A DNA stretch of 64,000 bases from Robiginitalea aestuariiviva (GTDB lineage: Bacteria > Bacteroidota > Bacteroidia > Flavobacteriales > Flavobacteriaceae): positions 1,561 to 65,560 of the forward strand of contig NZ_JARPUQ010000003.1 in NCBI RefSeq assembly GCF_029537735.1. The letters run 5' to 3'. The notes under the pieces were generated by a model that saw only the letters and a program-made list of their open reading frames with translations, ran no database searches and had not been told where the DNA came from. Each line of letters starts with the position of its first letter. Position 1 is the stretch's first letter. This document shows positions 1-10,987 of this stretch, one piece after another. Position numbers and translations under genes: made by a program.

Positions 1-3000
1 GATGCGGCAGCCAATTTCACAGCTACCGACGTAGAAGGTGCCCTGGCCGAACTGGCCGCAGGCAGCACCGACGACCAAAACATCAGCGGTTCCGGTTTGG
101 CCGGCACCACCCTGACCATCGGGATTGAGAATGGCACGGGCGAGACCGTAGACCTGTCTTCCCTGGTAAACGATGCGGATGCAGACCCGACCAACGAATA
201 CAACACCGGCATCAGCTTTGACGGCACCAACCTGACCGTGACCGATGCAGGTGGCAACCAGAGCGTGGATATCAGCGGCGTAAGCACTGACGACCAAACG
301 GCGGCCGAAGTAACCTACAGCAATGCCACTTCCGGGCTTACCGCCACGGACGTACAGGCAGCCATCGACGAGGTTGCTGCAGGCAGTACTGACGACCAGA
401 ACATTAGCGGTTCCGGTCTGGCTGGAACCACCCTGACCATCGGGATTGAAAACGGAACCGGAGAAACGGTAGACCTGTCTTCCCTGGTGAACGATGCGGA
501 TGCAGACCCGACCAACGAATACAACACCGGCATTAGCTTTGACGGCACCAACCTGACAGTTACCGATGCAGGCGGGAATCAGAGCGTGGATATCAGCGGT
601 GTAAGCACCGACGACCAGAACATCAGCGGCTCCGGCCTGGCCGGGACCACCCTGACCATCGGGATTGAGAACGGGACTTCCGAAACCGTAGACCTGTCTT
701 CCCTGGTGAACGACGCGGACGCCGATCCGACCAACGAATACAACACTGGCATCAGCTTTGACGGCACTAACCTGACCGTTACCGATGCAGGCGGGAACCA
801 AAGCGTGGATATCAGCGGGGTTTCTACTGACGATCAGAACATCAGCGGCTCTGCCCTGGTGGGAACCGACCTGACTATTGGCATCGAGAATGGTACCAGC
901 GAGACCATTGACCTGTCCAGCCTGGTGGGTACTGACGATCAGACTGCAGCTGAAGTAAGCATAGCCGATGCAGCAGCCAATTTCACGGCTACTGACGTGG
1001 AAGGAGCCCTGGCCGAACTGGCCGCGGGCAGCACTGACGACCAAACCATTTCTACGGATGGTACGGCCGGAAACCTCTCCATCGAGAGCGGCAACACCAT
1101 CACCCTTAATGTGGATGACGCGGACGCCGACCCGACCAACGAATACAACACCGGCGTAGCTATGAACGGCGGGGCACTGGAAGTTACCGATGGGGGAGGT
1201 ACCCAGTCTGCTAACCTGGTGAGTACCGATGCCAATAACGATATTGCCGTAGGCACGGACGGTGCCCTTTACCTGAATGTGGCTTCCGTTACCATTGCCG
1301 AAACCGTGACTAACCTTTCCGATAACGGAGACGGTACCTTCACTTATGTGAATGAAAGCGGGGCTAGCCAGACGGTGGCCAAAAGCGATATCACTGCCAA
1401 TGGCGATGGTACGTATACCTTTACCAACAATGACGGATCCGATGTGATCCTGGATACCCGCGCGGCTTCTAACCCGTACGATAATTCCACCAGTGGCCTA
1501 ACCGCCACGGATGTACAGGCGGCTATCGATGAGGTTGCCACAGGCAGCACCGACGACCAAAACATCAGCGGTTCCGGTTTGGCCGGCACCACCCTGACCA
1601 TCGGGATTGAGAATGGCACGGGCGAGACCGTAGACCTGTCTTCCCTGGTAAACGATGCGGATGCAGACCCGACCAACGAATACAACACCGGCATCAGCTT
1701 TGACGGCACCAACCTGACCGTAACCGATGCAGGCGGGAACCAGACTGTGGATATTAGCGGCGTAAGCACTGACGACCAGACTGCGGCCGAGGTGACCTAC
1801 AGTAACACCACTTCCGGGCTGACTGCCACCGATGTGCAGGCGGCTATCGATGAGGTTGCTGCGGGCAGCACCGATGACCAAACCATCTCCCTGACCGGGA
1901 ACACCCTGGCCATCGAGAGCGGCAACAGCATAGACCTGAGCGGTTACCTTGATAATACTGACGACCAGACGGCAGCCGAGGTGAGCATAGCCGATGCGGC
2001 AGCCAACTTTACGGCTACCGACGTAGAAGGTGCCCTGGCCGAACTGGCCGCTGGCAGCACCGATGATCAAACCATCTCCCTGACCGGGAACACCCTGGCC
2101 ATCGAGAGCGGCAACAGCGTAGACCTGAGCGGCTACCTGGACAACACCGACGACCAAACCATCTCCCTGACCGGGAACACCCTGGCCATTGAGAGCGGTA
2201 ACAGCGTAGACCTGAGCGGCTATTTGGACAACACGGACGACCAGACGGCAGCCGAGGTAAGCATAGCCGATGCGGCAGCCAATTTCACGGCTACCGATGT
2301 GGAAGGTGCCCTGGCCGAACTGGCCGCAGGCAGCACCGACGATCAGAACATCAGCGGTTCCGGTTTGGCCGGTACCACTCTGACCATTGGCATTGAGAAT
2401 GGGACTTCCGAAACCGTAGACCTGTCTTCCCTGGTGAACGACGCGGATGCAGACCCGACCAACGAATACAACACCGGTATCAGCTTTGACGGCACCAACC
2501 TGACCGTAACTGATGCAGGAGGCAACCAGAGTGTGGACATCAGCGGAGTAAGCACTGACGACCAGAACATTAGCGGTTCCGGCCTGGCCGGCACCACCCT
2601 GACCATCGGGATCGAGAACGGGACTTCTGAAACCGTAGACCTGTCTTCCCTGGTTAACGATGCGGATGCAGACCCGACCAACGAATACAACACCGGCATT
2701 AGCTTTGACGGCACCAACCTGACCGTTACCGATGCAGGCGGAAACCAGAGTGTTGACATCAGCGGGGTTTCTACCGACGATCAGAACATCAGCGGCTCTG
2801 CCCTGGTGGGAACAGACCTGACCATTGGCATTGAGAATGGAACCAGCGAGACCATAGATCTGTCCAGCCTGGTGGGTACTGACGATCAGACTGCGGCCGA
2901 GGTGACCTACAGCAACGCCACTTCCGGGCTTACCGCCATGGACGTACAGGCGGCTATCGATGAGGTTGCTGCGGGCAGCACCGACGACCAGAACATCAGC

Positions 3001-6000
3001 GGTTCCGGTTTGTCCGGCACCACCCTGACCATCGGGATCGAAAACGGCACGGGTGAGACCGTTGACCTGTCTTCCCTGGTAAATGATGCGGATGCAGATC
3101 CGACCAACGAATACAACACCGGCATCAGCTTTGACGGCACCAACCTGACCGTTACCGATGCAGGTGGGAACCAGAGCGTGGATATCAGCGGGGTTTCTAC
3201 CGATGATCAGAATATCAGCGGTTCCGGTCTGGCCGGCACCACCCTGACCATCGGGATCGAGAACGGGACTTCTGAAACCGTAGACCTGTCTTCCCTGGTG
3301 AACGACGCGGACGCCGATCCGACCAACGAATACAACACCGGCATCAGCTTTGACGGTACCAACCTGACCGTTACCGATGCAGGTGGCAACCAGAGTGTGG
3401 ATATTAGCGGCGTAAGCACTGACGACCAGACGGCTGCTGAAGTTAGCATCGCCGATGCGGCTGCCAACTTTACGGCTACCGACGTGGAAGGTGCCCTGGC
3501 CGAACTGGCCGCTGGCAGCACCGATGACCAAACCATCTCCCTGACCGGGAATACCCTGGCCATTGAGAGCGGTAACAGTATAGACCTGAGCGGCTATTTG
3601 GACAACACGGACGACCAGACTGCAGCCGAAGTAACCTACAGCAACGCCACCTCCGGGCTTACCGCTACGGATGTACAAGCCGCTATTGACGAGGTTGCTG
3701 CAGGCAGCACCGACGATCAGAACATCAGCGGTTCCGGTTTGGCCGGTACCACCCTGACCATCGGGATTGAGAACGGGACTTCCGAAACCGTAGACCTGTC
3801 TTCCCTGGTGAACGACGCGGACGCCGATCCGACCAACGAATACAACACCGGCATCAGCTTTGACGGCACCACCCTGACCGTAACCGATGCAGGCGGCAAC
3901 CAGACTGTCGATATCAGCGGGGTAAGCACCGACGACCAAAACATCTCCCTGACCGGGAACACCCTGGCCATTGAGAGCGGTAACAGTATAGACCTGAGCG
4001 GCTATTTGGACAACACGGACGACCAGACTGCAGCCGAAGTAACCTACAGCAACGCCACCTCCGGGCTTACCGCTACGGATGTACAAGCCGCTATTGACGA
4101 GGTTGCCGCTGGCAGCACCGACGATCAGAACATCAGCGGTTCCGGCTTGGCCGGCACCACCCTGACCATCGGGATCGAAAACGGCACCGGCGAGACCGTA
4201 GACCTGTCTTCCCTGGTGAACGATGCGGATGCAGACCCGACCAACGAATATAACACCGGCATCAGCTTTGACGGCACCACCCTGACCGTGACCGATGCAG
4301 GCGGGAACCAGAGTGTGGATATCAGCGGGGTTTCTACCGATGACCAGACGGCAGCCGAGGTAAGCATCGCCGATGCGGCAGCCAACTTTACGGCTACCGA
4401 CGTAGAAGGTGCCCTGGCCGAACTGGCCGCTGGCAGCACCGACGACCAGAACATCAGCGGCTCTGCCCTGGTCGGAACTGACCTGACTATTGGAATTGAG
4501 AATGGAACCAGCGAGACCATAGATCTGTCCAGCCTGGTAGGTACTGACGATCAGACTGCAGCCGAAGTAACCTACAGCAACGCCACTTCCGGGCTTACCG
4601 CTACGGATGTACAAGCCGCTATTGACGAGGTTGCCGCAGGCAGCACCGACGATCAGAACATCAGCGGTTCCGGTTTGGCCGGCACCACCCTGACCATAGG
4701 AATTGAAAACGGAACCGGAGAAACGGTAGACCTGTCTTCCCTGGTGAACGATGCGGATGCAGACCCGACCAACGAATACAATACCGGCATCAGCTTTGAC
4801 GGCACCACCCTGACCGTGACCGATGCAGGCGGGAACCAGAGTGTGGATATCAGCGGGGTTTCTACCGATGATCAGACTGCGGCTGAAGTAACCTATAGCA
4901 ACGCCACCTCCGGGCTTACCGCCACGGATGTACAGGCGGCTATTGATGAGGTTGCCGCTGGCAGTACCGACGACCAGAACATCAGCGGCTCTGCCCTGGT
5001 GGGAACAGACTTGACCATTGGTATCGAGAATGGTACCAGCGAGACTGTCGATCTGTCCAGCCTGGTAGGGACGGATGACCAGACTGCAGCTGAGGTAAGC
5101 ATTGCCGATGCGGCTGCCAACTTTACGGCTACCGACGTAGAAGGTGCCCTGGCCGAACTGGCCGCTGGCAGCACCGATGACCAAACCATCTCCCTGACCG
5201 GGAACACCCTGGCCATCGAGAGCGGCAACAGCGTAGACCTGAGCGGCTACCTGGACAACACCGACGATCAAACCATCTCCCTGACCGGGAACACCCTGGC
5301 CATTGAGAGCGGTAACAGTATAGACCTGAGCGGCTATTTGGACAACACGGACGACCAGACTGCAGCCGAAGTAACCTACAGCAACGCCACTTCCGGGCTT
5401 ACCGCTACGGATGTACAAGCCGCTATTGACGAGGTTGCCGCTGGCAGCACCGATGACCAAACCATCTCCCTGACCGGGAACACCCTGGCCATTGAGAGCG
5501 GCAACAGCGTAGACCTGAGCGGCTACCTGGACAACACCGATGCCCAGACCCTGTCTACAGACGGAACGGCTGGCAACATCAGCGTGTCCGGAGGCAATAC
5601 CATTACCCTGAATGTGGACGATGCGGATGCGGATGCCACCAATGAGATCCAGGACCTGAGCCTGACCGGCAACAGCCTGGCCCTCTCCGGCGACGCCACC
5701 CCGGTAGACCTGAGCGGTTACCTGGACAACACCGATGACCAGACGGCTGCTGAAGTTAGCATCGCCGATGCGGCAGCCAATTTCACAGCTACCGACGTAG
5801 AAGGAGCCCTGGCCGAACTGGCCGCAGGCAGCACCGACGACCAAAACATCAGCGGTTCCGGTTTGGCCGGTACCACCCTGACCATCGGGATTGAGAACGG
5901 GACTTCCGAAACCGTAGACCTGTCTTCCCTGGTGAACGATGCGGATGCCGATCCGACCAACGAATACAACACCGGCATCAGCTTTGACGGCACCAACCTG

Positions 6001-6962
6001 ACCGTAACCGATGCAGGCGGGAACCAGAGTGTGGATATCAGCGGGGTTTCTACCGATGATCAGACTGCGGCTGAAGTAACCTATAGCAACGCCACCTCCG
6101 GGCTTACCGCCACGGATGTACAGGCGGCTATTGATGAGGTTGCCGCTGGCAGTACCGACGACCAGAACATCAGCGGCTCTGCCCTGGTGGGAACAGACTT
6201 GACCATTGGTATCGAGAATGGTACCAGCGAGACTGTCGATCTGTCCAGCCTGGTAGGGACGGATGACCAGACTGCAGCCGAGGTAAGCATAGCCGATGCG
6301 GCAGCCAATTTCACGGCTACCGATGTGGAAGGTGCCCTGGCCGAACTGGCCGCAGGCAGCACCGACGACCAGAACATCAGCGGCTCTGCCCTGGTGGGAA
6401 CAGACTTGACCATTGGTATCGAGAATGGAACCAGCGAGACTGTCGATCTGTCCAGCCTGGTAGGGACGGATGACCAGACTGCAGCTGAAGTAAGCATTGC
6501 CGATGCGGCTGCCAATTTCACGGCTACCGACGTGGAAGGTGCCCTGGCCGAACTGGCCGCTGGCAGCACCGATGACCAAACCATCTCCCTGACCGGGAAC
6601 ACCCTGGCCATTGAGAGCGGCAACAGCGTAGACCTGAGCGGCTACCTGGACAACACCGATGCCCAGACCCTGTCTACAGACGGAACGGCTGGCAACATCA
6701 GCGTGTCCGGAGGCAATACCATTACCCTGAATGTGGACGATGCGGATGCGGATGCCACCAATGAGATCCAGGACCTGAGCCTGACCGGCAACAGCCTGGC
6801 CCTCTCCGGCGACGCCACCCCGGTAGACCTGAGCGGTTACCTGGATAACACGGACGACCAGACTGCAGCCGAGGTAACCTACAGTAATGCCACTTCCGGG
6901 CTTACCGCCACGGATGTACAGGCGGCTATTGATGAGGTTGCCGCTGGCAGCACCGACGACCA
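1..6962 (+). repeat. Coding tandem-repeat mosaic with long identical copies
   Basis: The modules of the giant protein are also highly similar at DNA level, with mostly silent differences. Two pairs are identical over long stretches by base-by-base reading: 5437-5726 equals 6556-6845 (290 bp, offset 1119), and 4819-5090 equals 6007-6278 (272 bp, offset 1188). Both offsets are multiples of three, so recombination between copies would keep the frame. Repeats this long could also cause assembly errors. Confidence 0.9.
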
Positions 6963-7386
6963 GTATGACGACGAGGTGCCGCTGCGCACGCCCATCGATG
7001 TGGACGAAGGCGGGGAAGCCTCCCCGACTGCGGAGACCAATGTGCAGGAAGTGATCAATGCCATTGCGCCGATCACCTCCAAGGCAGCCCGGATCTTTTA
7101 TCCGCCGTCCATTGCGATTGATGCTTCTACCAATGGCAGCGGATACACGGTAGACCTCTATGCCCAGTACGTGGCCCAATTCGGCACCCCGGCAGTTGCC
7201 AGTTCAGGTGCCCCTGCAGCCCTGCCCACATACGGCGCTACGGAGCTCTACTACTATGTGACCTATGCGGACCCGGCGGTTTTTGCTAACATGAGTATTG
7301 ATGCCAATGGTGTACTTACCTACGACATCATCGGACAACCTGCGGATTACAACTCCCTGATTAACGTTGTCTTTGTTGTAAAGTAA
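1..7386 (+). CDS. Giant repetitive surface protein, 5' end outside the window
   Basis: The reading frame is open from base 1 to the TAA at 7384-7386, so the real start lies upstream; at least 2,461 codons are visible. Almost all of it is a mosaic of a few modules joined by the linker STDDQ or NTDDQ: a ~72-residue module ([12 protein letters not shown] to [11 protein letters not shown], about a dozen copies), two ~34-residue modules containing [16 protein letters not shown] or [16 protein letters not shown], and ~29-35-residue modules such as [17 protein letters not shown] distinct NGDGT-type segment sits near 1260-1480. The last ~140 residues (from about 6964) are non-repetitive, begin [10 protein letters not shown] and end [10 protein letters not shown]. 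They do not look like a type A or B type IX sorting domain. The composition is acidic and rich in Thr/Ser/Asp/Gly with no cysteine. The next two genes encode a type B type IX substrate and a PorP/SprF protein, so I infer an exported filament or adhesin. No catalytic domain is visible. Confidence 0.85.
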
Positions 7387-7408
7387 GAACCCTGACGCCA
7401 CCCAGACC

Positions 7409-9421
7409 TTGAAAACGAACCTACCACATATCACCAAACTAAGCGGCCTGCTTTTCCTGCTCCTGGGCATGTACCAGGTGCAGGGGCAGTTCCTGCTGCA
7501 GGCGCCCAACTCCGGGGATGAGAACAATTTCCGCTGGTACGAGGCCTCCGACCCGGCCACCGTACTTGGAACAGACTTCTTTTACGAAGCGACCACCCCG
7601 GGTATTTATTTTGCCACCTACGACGGTACGGCCTGTGGCTCCAATGCCACTGGATATTTTATCCTGACGGATTGCAGCAGCCCGGACAACGAGGTAACCC
7701 TGGATATTTCGGCCAATGTGAATGCCAGTGCCACCGTAAGCTGGTCGCCGGCGGTAAGTGGGGACCCGCTGCGGCCTATGGTGATTTCCACCCAGGCCGT
7801 TACCACATATACGGCATCGGTAATCAAGGCCGGAGTGGCCAGCGCCCTGCCGTCGTTTACCATTGTCTGTATGCAACAGGCGGCTACCCTGGTAGACGAC
7901 TTTGTAACCGTGAACGAGGATGTGGATGTGGTGGTGCCCCTGTACCTGAACGACACCGGGATTCCGGACGACGGGATTCTGACCGTGACCAACCCCCCGA
8001 ACGGAACGGCCACTATTGACGACAACGGGACGCCCAACGACCCTTCAGACGATATTGTGACCTATACGCCGGATCCGGATTTCAACGGCACAGATTCCTT
8101 TGAATACACCGTGTGTACTGCTTCCGGATATTGCAGCACCGCCGTGGTTAACGTAACGGTGAACCCCATTGTGGATGCGGTGGACGATGTGGCGGCAACC
8201 TTTGTAAGCGTTCCCATTGACATCAATGTGCTGACCAACGACAACGATGTGCCTTCTGCCGGGGCCTGTACGATCAACGACCCGGCCAACGGTACCGTAA
8301 CCATGGACGATAACGGCACGCCGAACGACCCGTCCGACGATATGCTCACTTATACCCCCGACCCCGGGTTTATTGGTACGGACTCTTTTACGTATACCAT
8401 ATGTGATGACCTCGGACGTTGCGATACGGCCACGGTGACCATCATCGTAAACCCGCCCGGGGTAGACCTGGACAGCGATAACGACGGGATTGTGGACACC
8501 TTTGAGGACCTGGATCTGGACGGGGACGGCGATCCTTCCACCAACCCTACCGATACCGACGGGGACGGCGTACCGGATTACCTGGATATCGATTCCGATA
8601 ACGATGGGATCCCGGATAACGTGGAGGCCCAGAGCACGACGGGTTACCTGGCCCCCAGCGGGGAGGATATGAATGCCAACGGCCTGGACGATGCCTATGA
8701 AAACGGCGGCGGCCTGGGGGTAATCCCCGAAGATACTGACGGGGACGGCATCCCGGATTATGTGGATTCTGACAGCGACAATGATGGTGTCCCGGACGTA
8801 ATTGAGGCCCACGACTGGGATCAAGACGGGGTTGCGGATGTGGTGTTGGTCGGTTCCGACAAGGACAACGACGGCCTGGACGACGGCTTTGAAGGATCTA
8901 CCTCCATAGACGATGATATCAATGACGAGATCGACAACCCGGTGGGCGACCTGCCGGATACCGACAGCGACGGGGAATCCGATTACCGGGATACCGACGA
9001 CGACGGGGACCGCCTGCTGACTATTGATGAAGATGCCAACGGCGATGGTATGCTGTATAATGACGACGTGGACCAGGACGGCACCCCGGACTATCTGGAA
9101 CCCAACCCCGGAGAAGATCCCATTGAGATCTATAACGTATTGACTCCCAATGGGGATGGCGCACACGATTATCTGAAAATCGAAGGCCTGGAAGATTTCC
9201 CGAACAACACCATCCGGATCTACAACCGATGGGGCGTGCTGGTCTTCACCACCAGGGCTTACGATACGGCAGGAAATGTGTTTGATGGCACTTCCCAGGG
9301 CCGGGTAACCATACAACAGGAGAATAAGTTGCCGGTAGGTACCTATTTCTATATCCTGGATTACGAGGACCGCGCCGGGCAGATGCAATCGCGCACGGGC
9401 TATCTCTACTTAAACCGATAA
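7409..9421 (+). CDS. Type IX secretion (type B CTD) protein with Ig-like domains and TSP3 Ca-binding repeats
   Basis: 670 residues. The start is a TTG 22 bp after the giant gene's stop; it gives a clean signal peptide ending near VQGQF, and no ATG gives a better one. Two Ig/cadherin-like repeats follow (about 135-250 and 253-350), both with [12 protein letters not shown] and TYTPDP. Residues ~352-575 are thrombospondin type 3 style Ca-binding repeats ([22 protein letters not shown] and similar). The last ~90 residues are the gliding-motility-associated C-terminal domain ([37 protein letters not shown]), the type B sorting domain of the type IX secretion system. The product should be secreted through the outer membrane, probably with the PorP/SprF protein encoded next. 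Its role beside the giant repeat protein is inferred to be a partner or anchor. Confidence 0.9.
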
Positions 9422-9425
9422 GGGC

Positions 9426-10388
9426 ATGAAGGGCATTAACAACTTTGGGATTTTGAGTATTCGCCGGGCCGGGATGGCCCTGCTGGCGGCAGGCTGCCTT
9501 TGGGGCGCCGGGCTGCAGGCACAACAGGATGCCCAGTACACCCAGTATATGTACAACACCGTAAGTGTGAACCCGGGCTATGCCGGTTCCCGCGGCAACA
9601 TGAGTATTGCGGCCCTGTACCGGGCCCAGTGGGTGGGCCTGGACGGGGCGCCCAAAACCCAAACCCTGAACTTGCACTCTCCCGTGGGCTATCGCGGGCT
9701 GGGAATGGGGGTTTCCATTGTGAACGACCAGATCGGGCCTACCTCCGAGACCTATTTTGACGGGGACATCTCCTATACCATACAGGTGGGGCCGGAGCAG
9801 CGCCTGAGTTTTGGGGTGAAAGGGAGCGTGCACCTGCTGGATATCCGCTTCTCGGAACTGAACCAGGACCCCAATTACCCGGATGCCCAGTTGCAGGCCG
9901 ATATACAGAACCGCCTTTCACCCAATGTGGGGGCCGGGGTCTATTACCATACCGAACACTTCTATGCCGGGCTTTCCATCCCCCGCTTCCTGGAAACACG
10001 GCATTTTGATGAATCTTCCCTGTCTACGGCAAATGAGCAGATGAACTTCTATTTCATTACCGGCTATGTGTGGGACCTGAACGACCTCTGGAAATTCAAG
10101 CCAACCATCCTGGCCAAGGCCACCTCCGGGGCGCCCTTGCAAGCAGATTTATCCGCCAACTTCATGTATGACGAGAAGTTTATTTTCGGGGCAGCTTACC
10201 GCTGGGATGCTGCCTTCAGCGGGATGATCGGCTTTAATATTTCCCGTTCCTTCCTGATCGGGCTGGCCTATGACCGGGAGATTACCGAGCTGGGGAGCGC
10301 CGCGTTCAACAACGGTTCCTTCGAGGTGATCATGCGCTACGATTTTATCCGTACGGTGGGCAATATCAAGAGCCCGCGTTTCTTCTGA
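9426..10388 (+). CDS. PorP/SprF family type IX secretion outer-membrane protein
   Basis: 320 residues, starting 4 bp after the previous stop. A signal peptide (ending near AGLQAQ) is followed by the family's N-terminal signature QDAQYTQYMYNTVSVNPGYAG, with YRAQWVGLDGAPKTQ and GLGMGVSIVNDQIGPTSE after it. The rest alternates short beta strands as in a membrane barrel. SprF is needed in Flavobacterium for delivery of the adhesin SprB, and PorP/SprF genes commonly sit beside genes for type B substrates. The three-gene order here (giant protein, type B protein, PorP/SprF) fits one operon. No clear terminator follows, only a short ACCCC/GGGGT dyad near 10405-10420. Confidence 0.93.
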   Translation: MKGINNFGILSIRRAGMALLAAGCLWGAGLQAQQDAQYTQYMYNTVSVNPGYAGSRGNMSIAALYRAQWVGLDGAPKTQTLNLHSPVGYRGLGMGVSIVNDQIGPTSETYFDGDISYTIQVGPEQRLSFGVKGSVHLLDIRFSELNQDPNYPDAQLQADIQNRLSPNVGAGVYYHTEHFYAGLSIPRFLETRHFDESSLSTANEQMNFYFITGYVWDLNDLWKFKPTILAKATSGAPLQADLSANFMYDEKFIFGAAYRWDAAFSGMIGFNISRSFLIGLAYDREITELGSAAFNNGSFEVIMRYDFIRTVGNIKSPRFF

Positions 10389-10443: not shown

Positions 10444-10450
10444 GGGAGTG

Positions 10451-10987
10451 ATGGAAGAAAAGGTGATTTTGGTGAGCCCCGAGGACGAGGTCCTGGGGAC
10501 CATGCCCAAAATGGAGGCACACGAAAAAGCGGTCCTGCACCGCGCATTCTCTGTATTTGTACTGAATCAAAAAGGGGAACTTATGCTGCAGCAGCGCGCA
10601 GCGGATAAGTACCATTCCCCCCTGTTGTGGACCAACACTTGTTGCAGCCACCAGCGCCTGGGGGAGTCCAATGTGCAAGCCGGGAAACGGCGCCTGCAGG
10701 AAGAGATGGGTTTTGAGACTGAGCTGCAGGAATTGTTTTCCTTTATCTATAAGGCCCCATTCGACAACGGCCTGACCGAGCACGAGCTGGACCACGTTTT
10801 GCTGGGGTATTTTGAGGATGCGCCCCGGATTAACCCGGAGGAGGTGGAAGCCTGGAAGTGGATGCCCCTGGATGCAGTGGCACAAGACCTGGAAGCCCGT
10901 CCCGGCCACTACACAGCCTGGTTCCGCATCGTCTTCCGCAGATTCTATGATTACATTCAATCCCAATCCGGAAACCATGAAGGTTAA
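10451..10987 (+). CDS. idi: Isopentenyl-diphosphate delta-isomerase (type I)
   Basis: 178 residues. Interconverts isopentenyl and dimethylallyl diphosphate, supplying isoprenoids such as menaquinone, carotenoids and undecaprenyl lipids. The Nudix-like fold is recognisable: HRAFSVFVLNQKGELMLQQR, the catalytic cysteine in TNTCCSHQ, the Nudix-type helix RRLQEEMGFETEL, and the glutamates of EHELDHV. I chose ATG 10451 over the GTG at 10448 because MEEKVILVSPEDEVLG matches relatives. A promoter box lies 7 nt upstream. The 3' end overlaps the next gene by 11 bp. Confidence 0.95.
   Translation: MEEKVILVSPEDEVLGTMPKMEAHEKAVLHRAFSVFVLNQKGELMLQQRAADKYHSPLLWTNTCCSHQRLGESNVQAGKRRLQEEMGFETELQELFSFIYKAPFDNGLTEHELDHVLLGYFEDAPRINPEEVEAWKWMPLDAVAQDLEARPGHYTAWFRIVFRRFYDYIQSQSGNHEG

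Follow-up and report, generated by a model that had tools for sequence, protein, structure and literature searches.

The giant repetitive protein at the start of a 64,000-nucleotide stretch of the Robiginitalea aestuariiviva genome (contig NZ_JARPUQ010000003.1, positions 1,561 to 65,560; hereafter the window) ends in a compact C-terminal module that, judged from sequence comparison, is a real, conserved and unmodelled domain with a tight gene neighborhood in its own family, the Flavobacteriaceae. The module core, a new domain family of about 100 amino acids (aa), lies at positions 7084..7383 on the plus strand. It is followed on the same strand by gene 2 (7409..9421), which encodes a secreted protein of 670 aa with a type B sorting domain of the type IX secretion system (T9SS), and by gene 3 (9426..10388), which encodes an outer membrane protein of the PorP/SprF family. 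We tentatively favor, at somewhat less than even confidence, the interpretation that the module is a new fiber-head domain that trimerizes the fiber and docks it on the partner encoded downstream. The module would then be the C-terminal head of Sec-exported, fiber-forming surface proteins of Flavobacteriales, in which collagen-like repeats of relatives suggest a trimeric stalk, and it would attach the fiber to the protein encoded just after it. Gene 2, as a type B T9SS substrate, would be exported and anchored by its PorP/SprF partner, and the giant fiber would be displayed on the cell surface through gene 2 and PorP.

Conservation marks out the module as a discrete unit. Among 39 homologues, identity to the window's sequence is 0.60-0.82 over the last 120 aa (0.63-0.82 in the core) and 0.51 in the preceding block, and falls to 0.09-0.35 more than 140 aa from the C-terminus. 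The match stops at most 2 residues short of the C-terminus in all 90 module open reading frames (ORFs) from the fetched loci, and the sequence nearly always closes with a hydrophobic strand and K or R. An AlphaFold2 (AF2) model of the 140 aa originally quoted as the module, built with 77 sequences, has a mean pLDDT of 87 and a pTM of 0.67, and its core (residues ~41-140) consists of beta strands and one helix. The first 40 of these residues (6964..7083) are modelled as strands plus helix, like the last repeat unit, and their identity is 0.51-0.60 across the same homologues; they look like a final, degenerate repeat unit ahead of the module, the conserved domain proper being the last ~100 aa. 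The module is present in 62 of 299 Flavobacteriaceae genomes, one copy each, which bears out the remark in an earlier note on this DNA that other flavobacterial repeat proteins have VVFVVK endings. Across the order it was found in 36 of 296 genomes, some with 2-4 copies, and across the phylum in 14 of 395, all in the same order (Flavobacteriales) except for a weak match (E 5.8e-4) in a genome of a different family, G395, in which no PorP match was found.

No known domain accounts for the module. The last 148 aa of the giant protein have no Pfam or NCBIfam match at E<=1, in line with the earlier note's view that the repeat protein ends in a compact unique module without a recognizable sorting domain. 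When 30 module members were scanned singly against the same libraries, the matches were scattered and weak (best 0.024), and the models of type A and type B C-terminal sorting domains (CTDs) were not among them. Searches of PDB sequences gave best values of 0.64 with a single sequence and 0.18 with a profile. The giant protein matches neither the type A models (TIGR04183 / PF18962) nor the type B models (TIGR04131 / PF13585), and hhalign assigned the module a probability of 0.7% against eight type A CTDs of the same genome and 0.2% against its type B CTDs; the control alignment of type B with type A reached only 6.4%, so that a remote relation might escape profiles of this depth. The module has no match to the type C (ChiA type) CTD in NCBIfam or Pfam, libraries that probably include a type C model. 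The type C family is designated cl41395 (PMC10202324). The module resembles T9SS type A, B and C sorting domains in its length of ~100 aa, its strictly C-terminal position, its mainly beta-strand model and its usual K/R end, but differs from types A and B in having no profile match to either and no credible NCBIfam or Pfam match. A match to a known sorting domain, which would have spoken against the earlier note, was not seen in the type A and type B comparisons, and its suggestion of a family-wide C-terminal device holds in the sense that the module is widespread, unmodelled and unlike the modelled sorting domains tested. We found no prior description of the module or of its gene layout in the open-licence literature.

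The two downstream genes encode what the earlier note had read in them, a type B protein and a PorP/SprF protein. Gene 2 starts with TTG 22 bases beyond the stop codon of the giant protein and carries Big_9 and cadherin-like domains ahead of a type B sorting domain (CHU_C 2e-28 and TIGR04131 8e-13, residues 572-670; PF13585, residues 572-668, positions 9122..9412), with a PorP/SprF gene next in line. Gene 3 starts 4 bases past the gene-2 stop and matches the profiles of PorP/SprF carriers (PF11751 4e-93, TIGR03519 3e-79). Type B proteins are known to exit the translocon together with their cognate PorP/SprF protein, which also anchors them (PMC12618676, PMC9143113, PMC10202324, PMC12635249); gene 3 is likely the carrier and anchor of gene 2. 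By profile and order, genes 2 and 3 form such a pair, as do PG1035-PorP-PorE and Fjoh_3952-Fjoh_3951. The window differs from these examples in its giant upstream protein without a type B CTD, and a fiber protein ahead of the pair is not described in the portions of the literature examined. Nor does a PorE-like gene follow gene 3; by eye, the next genes are an idi-like gene (10448-10987) and others.

Within the Flavobacteriaceae, the neighborhood of the module is tightly kept. Type B and PorP ORFs both lie downstream on the same strand in 59 of 62 copies (the window's, 57 of 60 others, and that of genome G022); the exceptions are one locus with a type B ORF only (L084) and two with neither (L091, L094). 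The immediate next gene encodes a type B protein in 52 of the 62 copies, the window's and 51 others. In seven loci (L089, L090, L092, L093, L095, L096, L097), the module gene and the type B gene are separated by the gene for a large protein with an end like ITNPMLPSKAK; after it come a type B protein of ~412 aa, PorP and, in six of these loci (not L097), a PorE-like protein. PorE-like proteins of ~640 aa, with an OmpA-like end by eye (RRSEFI and similar), follow PorP in L089, L090, L092, L093, L095, L096, L098, L099, L198, L201, L222 and L223, and are absent from the window's version of the locus.

The part of gene 2 that goes with the module is its N-terminal domain (residues 20-160, positions 7466..7888). 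Of the 62 module genomes of the family, 49 (the window's and 48 of 61 others) have it in the gene adjoining the module, as do 76 of 80 named loci. Among the matches listed, at least 49 genomes cover this domain (46 at full length, 3 in part) and all carry the module; in module-negative genomes, the gene-2 matches listed fall in the repeat and TSP3/CTD part. An AF2 model of the domain had a mean pLDDT of 64 and was not used. The idi-like gene after PorP is found within the fetched stretch in 71 of the 80 named loci, and thus the chromosomal place of the system is conserved. This conservation, together with the absence of any match to the module among 50,697 phage and 72,556 plasmid records, stands against an origin by chance or from a mobile element, such as a phage-derived fiber gene; we regard that origin as highly improbable, for all that the style of the repeats resembles that of phage fibers.

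In a second family of the order, perhaps Chryseobacterium-like, the trio breaks. This family has 21 module-positive genomes, from 15 of which we fetched 18 loci. Its module proteins are only 190-240 aa long, and the gene that follows encodes a protein with a C-terminal tail like CVISNKNVTQKI, CSVISNPMLP or CIITNRMIYTKLNSN in 17 loci and reads WINPSL in the remaining one (L200). No type B or PorP ORF was detected in the fetched stretch of any of the 18 loci in searches whose profiles came from loci of the first family and could miss diverged copies; across the 26 loci surveyed, the seven type B and six PorP ORFs all fall in L198, L199, L201-L203, L222 and L223. These observations indicate that the constant neighbor of the module is a secreted partner protein, not PorP. 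The neighborhood link proposed in the earlier note thus stands for the window's own family and fails beyond it, since type B and PorP/SprF genes do not always follow the module.

The tails of these second partners have features of their own. Of the 710 ORFs in the loci that are at least 200 aa long, 33 fit a strict version of the tail pattern. Among these, 29 directly follow a module gene, and the remaining four (L072, L201, L222, L223) share a fetched stretch with the module. The pattern was made by hand, and its loose form picks up L091, L094 and L223 as well, where the next genes appear by eye to be something else. The tail-sharing proteins are 300-4233 aa long, fall into several unrelated clusters and share roughly C..[IV][TS]N[PKR].[LIM]...K; as next genes they occur in L204-L220, L198, L199, L089, L090, L092, L093, L095-L097, L170, L174 and L177. 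Six such partners that were scanned had adhesin-like or Ig-like domain matches at most, or nothing. The shared ITN/ISN-like tail may be another unmodelled C-terminal device. Several modules (L205, L206, L208, L221, L222) carry a cysteine just ahead of the last strand (..CSFINIVFVVK), and the partner tails also often carry one, inconsistently; we make no claim of a disulfide.

The proteins that carry the module have the character of exported fibers. By eye, a signal-peptide-like start is present in 48 of the 54 module ORFs that are not cut at a contig start and contain no N. These 54 ORFs have three kinds of N-terminus and range from 190 to 2747 aa, and therefore a signal peptide and the module are the parts common to them. 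Of the 169 module proteins in a redundant set, 27 have collagen-like runs of at least 8 GXX triplets, with up to 329 triplets. In the loci, such runs occur in 15 of 90 module ORFs compared to 3 of the 861 remaining ORFs (Fisher p 9e-14, uncorrected for relatedness); two of those three appear to be 5' parts of module genes. Because collagen helices are trimers, the C-terminal domain adjacent to the stalk would be a natural trimerizer in the collagen-like module proteins, and trimerization of the window's own DDQ-repeat protein may be proposed by analogy with these relatives. Like collagen-like and phage-fiber-like trimeric proteins, many relatives have a GXX or short-repeat stalk followed by a compact C-terminal domain. 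Unlike those proteins, they carry a head unrelated by sequence to any solved domain and are genetically tied to T9SS partners, and their trimeric state is a prediction.

A second arrangement in the same genome suggests that heads of this kind can be exchanged. On another contig (C1), positions 117,002-124,670 (L244:3-7671) hold two tandem pairs, each a fiber protein directly followed by a ~385 aa type B protein, one fiber with the same kind of repeat as the giant protein and one with GXX stretches. These fibers end in a different head (..LQSDG..W.QI), and the last 187 aa of the first have no Pfam or NCBIfam match at E<=0.01. No PF11751 match lies between 13,706 and 320,003 of contig C1, the region around the pairs. 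With a different head ahead of type B proteins on this contig, the heads upstream of type B partners seem interchangeable.

Interchangeable heads and collagen-like stalks ahead of the head would also suit a module that is only an adhesive tip or trimerization cap, with co-regulated surface neighbors and a fiber that does not bind gene 2. Weak structural matches that include phage tailspike C-terminal domains lean the same way. We consider this account unlikely. Among the matches listed, the N-terminal part of gene 2 is confined to genomes that have the module and to the gene beside it (49 of 49), which exceeds what co-regulation needs. In addition, the module is as conserved as its neighbors (mean distance 0.236, against 0.269 for PorP and 0.267 for the idi-like gene), which is unusual for an exposed receptor-binding tip.

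A different explanation is that the module itself is a new class of T9SS C-terminal sorting signal, recognized by the neighboring PorP/SprF protein or another carrier, such that the fiber and the type B protein are two substrates on one route. This explanation arises because the module is the only shared C-terminal part; apart from the signal peptide, it is the sole element common to proteins with different N-termini, and it is strictly C-terminal, with a hydrophobic strand and a nearly constant K/R end. PorP lies beside the module in 59 of 62 genomes of the family, the module's partial co-divergence is as strong with PorP as with gene 2, and the T9SS translocon gene sprA is present in 89 of 89 module-positive genomes. 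Homologues in genomes without type IX secretion, which would have counted against the earlier note, did not turn up, but this test has little power, since 294 of 299 family genomes have sprA anyway and the five without it, all module-negative, would be expected to include about one positive. Against a sorting signal stand the 18 second-family loci without PorP or type B nearby, even though PorP and type B genes occur elsewhere in 21 of 21 module-positive genomes of that family; the different head upstream of type B genes in the same genome, with no PorP near; and the lack of a profile relation to type A or type B CTDs. We therefore hold direct sorting to be possible but doubtful. Of the two options raised in the earlier note, binding of the giant protein to the second protein fits better than an export signal, because of the second-family loci that lack type B and PorP and the like layout with a different head elsewhere in the genome.

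Several observations weigh against a trimerizing, docking head and keep our preference for it tentative. Foldseek searches of the module model against the PDB returned nothing at E<=0.001 (best 0.97), and against viral models likewise nothing at that threshold (best 0.028). The best VIA-align Z score, 4.2, is not interpreted, and the phage tailspike C-termini are far below significance. The window's own protein consists of DDQ-type repeats, not collagen, in the part read. For the second family, a second kind of partner must be assumed. In the first, 13 of 62 module genomes have other neighbors and lack the gene-2 N-terminal domain beside the module. Co-divergence, computed over 70 of the 80 named loci, gave r=0.41 for the module and the gene-2 N-terminus (partial 0.37 given the idi-like gene) and r=0.41 for the module and PorP (partial 0.38), and so does not single out gene 2 over PorP.

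The giant protein itself is incomplete in the window. Its gene (1..7386, plus strand) is open from the window start to a stop codon at 7384-7386, giving a fiber-like C-terminal part of 2461 aa that is made up of DDQ-type repeats where read; upstream of the window the frame stays open to the start of the contig, for 2981 aa on the contig as a whole. Another contig of this genome begins with an ORF that has a Sec signal peptide (MKRLFLLLLLTFFSGVAFSQ), an N-terminus reading TTVNLADQCNCEVL and the same DDQ-type repeats and that runs off the end. Because longer module-bearing relatives (L104, L116, L138, L150, L161, L178) have the same N-terminus, this ORF is very likely the missing 5' end of the giant gene, although we infer the join. 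An antisense open frame of 1893 aa (1498-7179, minus strand) lies opposite the repeats and is likely a by-product of repeat composition.

The system shares with the gliding adhesin operon sprC-sprD-sprB-sprF a large repeat protein next to a PorP-family carrier. The genome has its own spr-like operon at ~939,758-958,600 of contig C1 (L240, L241), whose genes we take, from their order and a tail motif, to be sprC, sprD, sprB and sprF. Its first ORF (754 aa) has a type B-like end by eye, the second (715 aa) matches PF11751, the SprB-like protein has 4481 aa and the SprF-like protein ends in NCRCTY, with the twin-cysteine motif NCRC. The twin-cysteine C-tail of the SprF-type carrier bonds GldK (PMC12635249). 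Gene 3, in contrast, ends in KSPRFF without twin cysteines and is not a carrier of the SprF gliding type, and C..C is absent from the last 40 aa of all 59 PorP ORFs of these loci. Homology of the module to SprC or SprD was considered and rejected, as the module profile has no match in the spr-like locus. With the spr-like operon elsewhere in the genome, and with a twin-cysteine tail in its SprF-like protein and in 0 of 59 PorPs here, the module system is not the gliding adhesin operon.

A broader possibility, which we put forward with less confidence than the docking head itself, is that the module represents a new class of T9SS-linked C-terminal devices, of which it would be the first member. 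Such a device would fold three stalk chains, up to thousands of residues long, into a fiber and hand this to a type B/PorP pair or, in other genera, to an ITN-tail partner. If this is true, Bacteroidota would display collagen-like fibers through two-protein docking and not through a sorting domain on the fiber itself. Prediction of T9SS substrates relies on CTDs of types A, B and C; if giant fiber proteins are displayed by partners and carry no such CTD, secretome predictions of Flavobacteriales would overlook a whole set of them. The module, the gene-2 N-terminal domain and PorP could provide a compact three-part system for asking what type B/PorP anchors hold at the cell surface, a question that also concerns static type B anchors such as Fjoh_3952.

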